Below are positions 1,987-3,615 of a stretch of 34,713 bases of DNA, one piece after another; the stretch's first letter is position 1; each line of letters starts with the position of its first letter. Origin of the DNA: Actinomycetota bacterium. GTDB taxonomy: Bacteria > Actinomycetota > Acidimicrobiia > Acidimicrobiales > Ilumatobacteraceae. The stretch is taken from NCBI GenBank assembly GCA_005787785.1, contig SXZT01000144.1, positions 1 to 34,713 on the forward strand. Direction: 5' to 3'. The notes under the pieces were generated by a model. That model saw nothing but the letters and a program-made list of their open reading frames with translations, made no database searches and was not told where the DNA came from. The position numbers were made by a program, and so were the translations under genes.

Positions 1987-3615
1987 ATGACCACGTTCGA
2001 CACGCCCGCCGCGGCACCCTCCGCTGCGTCCTCTTCCGGCGCCGGCGCCCTCGGGGCTCTCGTCGTTGGTATTGGGTCGTGGGCAACCACAACCGACCAC
2101 AAGAAAATCGGTCGACTCTTTGCGATGACTGCCCTGCTCATGGGCGCTGCTTCCTCAATTATCGGAGCGTTTCTCGGATTCGAACGCATCAGCGCAGGTG
2201 GATATTCGGTCCTTGACCTCGACTCGGTCGTGCAGTTGTCGTCGCTCTATCGCGTCGTCTTGTCGTTCGGCGTTGCGTTGCCGTTGATGCTCGGCATCGC
2301 GATCGCAGTCGTTCCTCTGCAAATCGGCTCGAAGGCCATCGCATTTGGTCGCCTCGCGTTGTTTGGTTTCTGGATGTGGTTCGCGGGCCTGGCCGTGTGC
2401 ATCTACTCGATCGCGGCAAACGGTGGACCCGGTGGCGGCGAGGCGAAAATGGTCGATCTGTTCTTGGTTGGCCTCGTCATCGCGGCCGCCGGCGCGCTTG
2501 CCGCAACGGTTTCACTCGTGACCACCGTTCTCACGAACCGCGCACCGGGGATGTCGCTGGCACGGGTGCCAATGCTGTCGTGGGCGGCGTTGACGGGCGG
2601 TGTGTCGCTGCTGCTCACGCTTCCGGTCGTCATCGGTACCGGGATCTACCTCTACGTCGACCACCACTACGGACGTCTCGCCTTCGGCGGAAACAAGGGT
2701 GTCAACGACTGGCTCGGATGGTCAATGACGCAGCCACAGACCTATGTCTTTGCAGCCATTGGCGTCGGAATCGTCGCCGAAGTCACCACGGTGGCGAGCG
2801 GGCGTCGACATCCGTTGCGTGCAATTCTCCTTGTTGGTGCGGGTCTGCTCACTGTCGCCGCTTTCGGTGGCGCAACCCAGGTCCAACATGCGCTCACGTG
2901 GACCAACACTTCGGGCAGCGACAAGGTGAAGGAGCTCATCCCGTTCCTCATCTTCAACGGCCTTCCCCTGCTCGGCGCCCTCGTCGTCCTCGGCGGTTGT
3001 GCTCTTGGGCTGGCAAAGGGCAAGCCGCGCGTGATGGCACCGCTGGTTCCCGCCGTTCTCGGCCTGGTCATGGTGCTTGCGGGTATGGCGGGTCATTTGA
3101 TCGCACAGTTCGGTCCCGCCGGCCTGGCTGGCACGGTCTTCGAAGAGGGTGAGTTCAACTACGTCGTCTACGGCACGGTGCTCATGGGCATCGGTGCCAT
3201 TGCCTTCTGGGGCCCGAAGCTGTGGGGGCGGTCGCTGCCGCAGTCGGCGGTGTTCGGTCTCGGCACGCTCGGTTTTCTCGGCACCGTGTTGGCGTCACTG
3301 CCGCTCTACGTCGCAGGTTTCGCCGACCAGCCCGCAGGCGCTGTCAACGGTTTCACCTACGGCGGACCTCAGGAACTGTGGAACGGACTCGCCGCGGTCG
3401 GCCAGGCGATCATCGCCGCCACAATCGTCCTCTTCGTCCTCACCGCAGTGCGTGCATTCCGCACGGGCGCACCCGCCGGTGACGATCCGTGGGATGCACA
3501 GACACTCGAATGGTCGGTGTCGTCGCCCGTACCCGCCGACAACTTTGCATCGGTGCCCGCGGTGACGAGCCCCGAACCGCTACTGGACTTGAAGCCTGCA
3601 GGGAGAGAGAAATGA
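1987..3615 (+). CDS. COX1-like (heme-copper oxidase subunit I family) pseudo-oxidase subunit lacking canonical metal ligands
   Basis: Colinear with CtaD in this window: N-term [12 protein letters not shown]~[33 protein letters not shown]~[37 protein letters not shown]~[34 protein letters not shown]~[26 protein letters not shown]~HFHYVLFG, C-term [15 protein letters not shown]~DPWDARTLEWMTTSP. Confidence 0.85.
   Translation: [542 protein letters not shown]

Follow-up and report, generated by a model that had tools for sequence, protein, structure and literature searches.

The caa3-type cytochrome c oxidase operon of the window, the whole 34,713-nucleotide stretch of Ilumatobacteraceae DNA analysed here, contains a second gene for subunit I, pCOX1, which encodes a protein that has lost every ligand of heme and copper and is maintained by purifying selection. 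pCOX1 belongs to a module of three genes, pCOX1-pCOX3-CUP, in which all the members are degenerate paralogs of oxidase subunits. Because pCOX1 is followed by a degenerate COX3 and by CUP with its subunit-IV-like segment, the module represents a "ghost" copy of the oxidase inside the oxidase's own operon. It is placed after ctaB, which lies immediately upstream of pCOX1, and directly before ctaC-ctaD-ctaE-ctaF-ctaG. pCOX1 is an ancient clade that extends across much of the Acidimicrobiales and occurs together with the caa3 oxidase wherever contigs are long enough. The genes of the locus are:

752-1873, forward strand, CtaB, heme O synthase, with the true start probably downstream of 752 (conserved neighbour, sequence, operon context)
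1987-3615, forward strand, pCOX1, cofactor-free cytochrome c oxidase subunit I paralog of 542 residues (PF00115, TIGR02891, AlphaFold2/Foldseek)
3612-4217, forward strand, pCOX3, degenerate subunit III (CtaE) paralog of 201 residues (PF00510, NF050119)
4225-5346, forward strand, CUP, 373 residues with a subunit-IV (CtaF)-like N-terminus, transmembrane helices and a copper-less cupredoxin tail (profile search, AlphaFold2/Foldseek)
5343-6578, forward strand, CtaC, subunit II with fused cytochrome c, canonical for caa3 (PF00116, E 2.8e-22; Cytochrom_C, E 5.7e-11)
6594-8588, forward strand, CtaD, canonical subunit I with all ligands (PF00115, E 1e-153)
8566-9183, forward strand, CtaE, canonical subunit III, start approximate (PF00510, E 7.5e-22)
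9212-9547, forward strand, CtaF-like small subunit, in the same place after CtaE in every long locus
9569-10462, forward strand, CtaG, caa3 CuB assembly factor (PF09678, E 4.1e-40)

The reading frame of pCOX1 is uninterrupted from ATG to TGA, and the first-pass annotation was correct in describing it as an intact open reading frame of 542 codons. The Pfam family COX1 (PF00115) matches residues 40-472 of the protein with 117 bits (E 1.2e-33, cut-off 34.8), whereas the canonical CtaD scores 513 bits. The match of pCOX1 to the CtaD model TIGR02891 (E 4.7e-55) is far under the model cut-off; canonical CtaD reaches 681 bits. The top match in a sequence search of the PDB is an actinobacterial cytochrome c oxidase subunit 1 (E 2.7e-40). 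The AlphaFold2 model of pCOX1, built from an alignment of 36 orthologs, has a mean pLDDT of 89, a pTM of 0.91 and the helix pattern of COX1. Foldseek matched the model to subunits I of aa3 and bo3 oxidases, with the mycobacterial aa3 subunit I (6adq_F/9gy6_F) as the best match (TM 0.82, E 1.8e-23). The PF00115 score and the Foldseek matches place the fold of pCOX1 in the heme-copper oxidase superfamily, and the COX1 frame that had been recognized by eye is thus substantiated.

The usual definition of subunit I rests on its ligands for heme and copper. The reference for the ligand columns was a set of 23 canonical CtaD sequences, all of which contain every heme and CuB histidine. In the alignment with these sequences, the six histidine columns of pCOX1 are occupied by Tyr, Gln, Gln, Val, Glu and Asn. 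The low-spin heme histidines are replaced by Tyr and Asn, the heme a3 histidine by Glu, and those of CuB by Gln, Gln and Val. The Glu of the HPEVY motif is changed to Gln, and only the Tyr of this site remains. The D-channel Asp is replaced by Ala and the K-channel Lys by Val. pCOX1 therefore has none of the metal ligands or these channel residues of a catalytic A-type oxidase, and it also lacks the conserved histidine ligands expected of nitric oxide reductases and other heme-copper oxidase variants. The alignment agrees with the first-pass annotation on the change of a low-spin heme histidine to Tyr, of HPEVY to QPQTY, of HFHY to EFNY and of GARD to GSKA, and on the absence of the K-channel motif. 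The annotation had also described the CuB His-His pair as gone or reduced to one uncertain histidine. The loss of the pair holds, with QV in its place; however, only 36% of 88 close orthologs share H301 of the sequence QVQH, so that this histidine is not a retained CuB ligand. Among the same orthologs, H38 from the cytoplasmic DHK motif is the only histidine with conservation above 80%, followed by H226 of a periplasmic loop with 80%. There is no conserved transmembrane histidine in these 88 sequences and no pair to hold a heme. Structure prediction and Foldseek, taken with the alignments, gave the same result: a COX1 fold with no histidine at the ligand sites.

The ratios of dN/dS were calculated pairwise within the genus by simple Nei-Gojobori counts, with some pairs near saturation, and amount to 0.04-0.11 for pCOX1, mostly 0.06-0.17 for pCOX3, 0.06-0.12 for CUP and 0.03-0.05 for CtaD. 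The values for pCOX1 correspond to strong purifying selection. Together with the fold and the synteny, they uphold the earlier view of pCOX1 as a maintained pseudo-oxidase subunit and not a decaying pseudogene. That view was incomplete, as it overlooked the two further degenerate subunits inherited along with pCOX1 and the stepwise series of cofactor losses among relatives. In the window's family, the conservation of helices TM6-TM10, which contain the active site in CtaD, is 0.58-0.68 in pCOX1 as against 0.80-0.87 in CtaD. By contrast, the cytoplasmic C-terminus (DDPW..TLEW..SP.P.NF) is conserved to 0.69 in pCOX1 and 0.67 in CtaD, and pCOX1 of this family has gained conservation in a periplasmic NGGPGGG loop. 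Therefore, the constraint acts on the surfaces and loops of pCOX1 and not on the catalytic core. A recent duplication of the adjacent ctaD is disfavoured, because a tree that groups pCOX1 with the CtaD sequences of the order is less likely (p-AU 0.008). The long branches of pCOX1 make this conclusion, like the age of the duplication, uncertain.

The start codon of pCOX3 at position 3612 overlaps the stop codon of pCOX1 (ATGA), which bears out the coupling of pCOX1 to its neighbour. The pCOX3 of the window matches PF00510 with 22.9 bits (E 9e-5, cut-off 23.8) and the model NF050119 (aa3_CtaE_Actin) with an E-value of 6e-8, and its ortholog in locus L087 matches PF00510 with 53.5 bits (E 4e-14). 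In a search with a profile of CUP, profile positions 4-116 match polypeptide 4 of actinobacterial cytochrome c oxidase (7q21_F, 6adq_H), and positions 250-344 match auracyanin A (2aan); further transmembrane helices are positioned between the N-terminal segment and the C-terminal cupredoxin-fold domain. The tail has a predicted cupredoxin fold (AlphaFold2 pLDDT 79-91) with Foldseek matches to amicyanin and auracyanin, and the membrane part is poorly modelled (pTM 0.42 for CUP). The Cys, His and Met copper ligands are gone from the CUP of the window and intact in relatives, so that the His, Cys, His and Met set of a type-1 blue copper site is missing from its cupredoxin fold. The canonical CtaD carries a C-terminal extension with a weak match to Cyt_c_ox_IV, the actinobacterial subunit IV (E 3e-5); therefore, subunit-IV-like segments are fused to both CtaD and CUP. 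The genome of the window, which is 78% complete, contains two detected COX1 genes, pCOX1 and CtaD, and one detected cytochrome b.

The gene order ctaB-pCOX1-pCOX3-CUP-ctaC-ctaD-ctaE-ctaF is common to orthologs from about 20 families of Acidimicrobiales, where contigs are long enough; most of the genomes compared are metagenome-assembled. Among 61 relatives, a caa3-type CtaD (at least 58% identity) is accompanied by the module unless the contig ends, and in the module-less genomes G039, G043, G050, G055, G056 and G057 the only oxidase is a distant one (42-48%). A loss of pCOX1 in G014 was rejected, since the contig ends there and a fragment of CUP is present. In genome G032 from the same family (96% complete), two cytochrome b matches but no COX1 whatsoever were detected; it appears to have lost the ghost module along with the caa3 oxidase. 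A scan of named genomes provided 71 further pCOX1 sequences, the majority of them from Ilumatobacteraceae or from related metagenome-assembled genomes, and one from the cultured Desertimonas flava SYSU D60003 (L197). None of the 71 has the low-spin histidine pair, and the canonical CtaD proteins alongside them keep their ligands. Planctomycete matches in the genome scan keep all the ligands of a canonical CtaD and were rejected as pCOX1. No relatives of pCOX1 were found on viral contigs in a contig scan. Intact reading frames are present in well over 100 genomes, including that of a cultured isolate. Outside the order, in the loci compared from the rest of the class and from further classes of the phylum, pCOX1 was not found, and a simpler transmembrane cupredoxin relative of CUP is located near ctaF/ctaG. 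Cupredoxins of this kind, which are anchored in the membrane and related to the tail of CUP, are encoded in the cta operons of L074-L092 and L113-L132. A general role for them in the oxidase operons of Actinomycetota, in electron transfer or as copper proteins, is possible.

Cofactor loss was counted in 56 pCOX1 sequences, which form one clade in the tree (SH-aLRT 100). CuB is lost throughout, as none of the 56 has more than one CuB histidine, and the proton-channel residues are absent from all known members. Histidines for both heme pockets are kept in nine of the 56 sequences (for example L062, L064 and L095, with MHAT...RPEVY...HLH), and the low-spin pair only is kept in 14 (for example L087, with TMHG...YPMLW...QQH). 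The remaining 33, including that of the window, have neither heme pocket. In pCOX1 of L062, L064, L065, L066, L093, L095, L097 and L100, the histidines of both hemes are accompanied by Arg in place of the first CuB histidine (RPEVY or RPEIY) and by the absence of the His-His pair; these proteins are apparently two-heme, copper-less variants of subunit I, judging from their residues. The pairing of heme with copper was compared at 54 module loci, 24 of which have the type-1 copper motif (CDFH..M) in CUP. Low-spin histidine pair and type-1 copper site are both present at 22 loci, both missing at 29 and mismatched at three (L053, L103, L109); copper is kept without the heme pair in two lineages. 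The pairing suggests that the ancestral module may have moved electrons from the cupredoxin to the low-spin heme. However, kinship reduces the data to three independent pairs, for which the sign test is not significant, and the association of heme and copper loss is therefore not statistically established.

A second, unrelated member of the COX1 superfamily that lacks the heme and CuB ligands, similar to CcoN of cbb3 oxidases, occurs in other orders of the class. It is encoded at L073:6093-8219, L231:6367-8361, L234:5608-7740, L240:5603-7567 and L244:5676-7109 and in about 100 further genomes of the class. Heme and CuB histidines are absent from all 17 of the CcoN-like proteins inspected. The gene adjoins those for cytochrome b, Rieske protein and cytochrome c in several of the inspected loci from other orders, and some of the proteins carry a FixO-type cytochrome c domain as a fusion. 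In L073, the dead CcoN is fused to a CUP cupredoxin and encoded directly before ctaC. Since both pCOX1 and the dead CcoN are ligand-free, subunits of this kind with the COX1 fold apparently originated on two or more occasions within Acidimicrobiia.

We consider the chances about even that pCOX1, pCOX3 and CUP form a "ghost oxidase", which would assemble mutually and with the caa3 oxidase as an accessory membrane complex. The ancestral module would have been an electron-transfer device attached to caa3, leading from the cupredoxin to the low-spin heme, and in basal lineages, as far as ligands indicate heme binding, it probably still relays electrons. In the lineage of the window, this wire would have been lost and a structural, assembly or supercomplex role would remain, as with CydB. 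The conserved surfaces and the relaxed TM6-TM10 of pCOX1 are consistent with such an accessory complex, as expected if the active site is unconstrained, and so are the composition of the module, its fixed gene order, its co-occurrence with caa3 and the purifying selection on it. Operon linkage and co-occurrence also fit an assembly factor that leaves the oxidase, and this is the strongest rival, although we regard it as rather unlikely. The module would then be a transient platform for the insertion of heme A or copper into CtaD and not a mature subunit; its position directly behind ctaB in the same operon as ctaG, its co-occurrence with caa3, and the heme-ligand histidines and copper site of its basal members agree with this role. 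However, the window's lineage has no cofactor ligand left from which anything could be passed on, the full set of I, III and IV paralogs resembles a complex more than a single chaperone, and the known assembly factors CtaG, Surf1 and Sco are not paralogs of subunits (see also PMC9145763). A more far-reaching form of the accessory-complex proposal is put forward tentatively: in Acidimicrobiales, a complete cofactor-free second oxidase, composed of subunits I, III, IV and a cupredoxin replacing subunit II, would stand in an obligate supercomplex with caa3, having lost its cofactors stepwise from a CuB-less wire of blue copper and heme, and a ligand-free cbb3-type subunit I would have been kept independently beside cytochrome bc genes in related orders.

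A module that is still redox active, carrying electrons or protons through alternative ligands or a bound quinone or lipid, is improbable. Its basal relatives look redox competent from their low-spin histidine pair and type-1 copper site; however, the close orthologs of pCOX1 have no conserved transmembrane histidine to offer, and the cupredoxin of the window has lost its ligands. We give an equally low chance to an independent membrane function as a channel, transporter or sensor unrelated to caa3. The COX1 scaffold is reusable, and the loss of the proton-channel residues together with the newly conserved NGGPGGG loop would suit such a function, but strict linkage to and co-occurrence with one type of oxidase, and the retention of COX3 and subunit-IV paralogs alongside, speak against it. 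A decaying pseudogene or an assembly artefact would account for the lost ligands, the fast-evolving branches and an in-frame TGA in the match of one relative, G016. This reading is rejected as extremely improbable on the basis of dN/dS ratios that are well under 0.2 in each of the three genes, the confident fold of pCOX1 and the wide distribution of intact reading frames.

No previous report of a subunit I that is free of ligands and yet maintained by selection was found in the open-access papers searched. The surviving intermediates, with CuB lost and both heme pockets, the low-spin pair only, or none retained, constitute a natural series of oxidase dismantling, which enables the possible sequence of the losses, and the role of the COX1 scaffold separately from catalysis, to be asked about. 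caa3 is the only heme-copper oxidase detected in the organism of the window, so that the module may be relevant to the respiration of abundant aquatic Actinomycetota. Oxidases in Acidimicrobiales will be overcounted by automatic annotation when it relies on the number of COX1 genes.

pCOX1 shares with A-type subunits I (COX1/CtaD) the fold of 12 transmembrane helices, the N-terminal DHK motif, the VPLQ.G and RAPGM loops, the C-terminal DPW..TLEW..SP motif and the operon neighbours. It differs from them in the absence of ligands for heme a, heme a3 and CuB and of the D- and K-channel residues, and is about 29% identical to CtaD of the same operon. pCOX3 and the N-terminus of CUP are divergent relatives of actinobacterial CtaE (subunit III) and CtaF (subunit IV); however, they score under the family cut-offs and occur beside the canonical subunits without replacing them. 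The CUP tail has the cupredoxin fold of the membrane-bound "Cup" proteins of COX gene clusters (PMC8239418), and relatives of CUP resemble these and auracyanin-type proteins also in their His, Cys, His and Met site and their location in cta operons. By contrast, the CUP of the window has lost the ligands and has an added subunit-IV-like N-terminus. The closest parallel to a partner that is homologous to the catalytic subunit and yet free of heme is CydB of the bd oxidase from E. coli, in which ubiquinone-8 occupies the positions homologous to those of heme (PMC6853902). The likeness is one of analogy and not homology, as CydB belongs to an unrelated protein superfamily, and it presumes the association of pCOX1 with caa3. 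Whereas CydB is an obligate half of its enzyme, pCOX1 accompanies an oxidase that is complete, and is itself joined by paralogs of COX3 and subunit IV.
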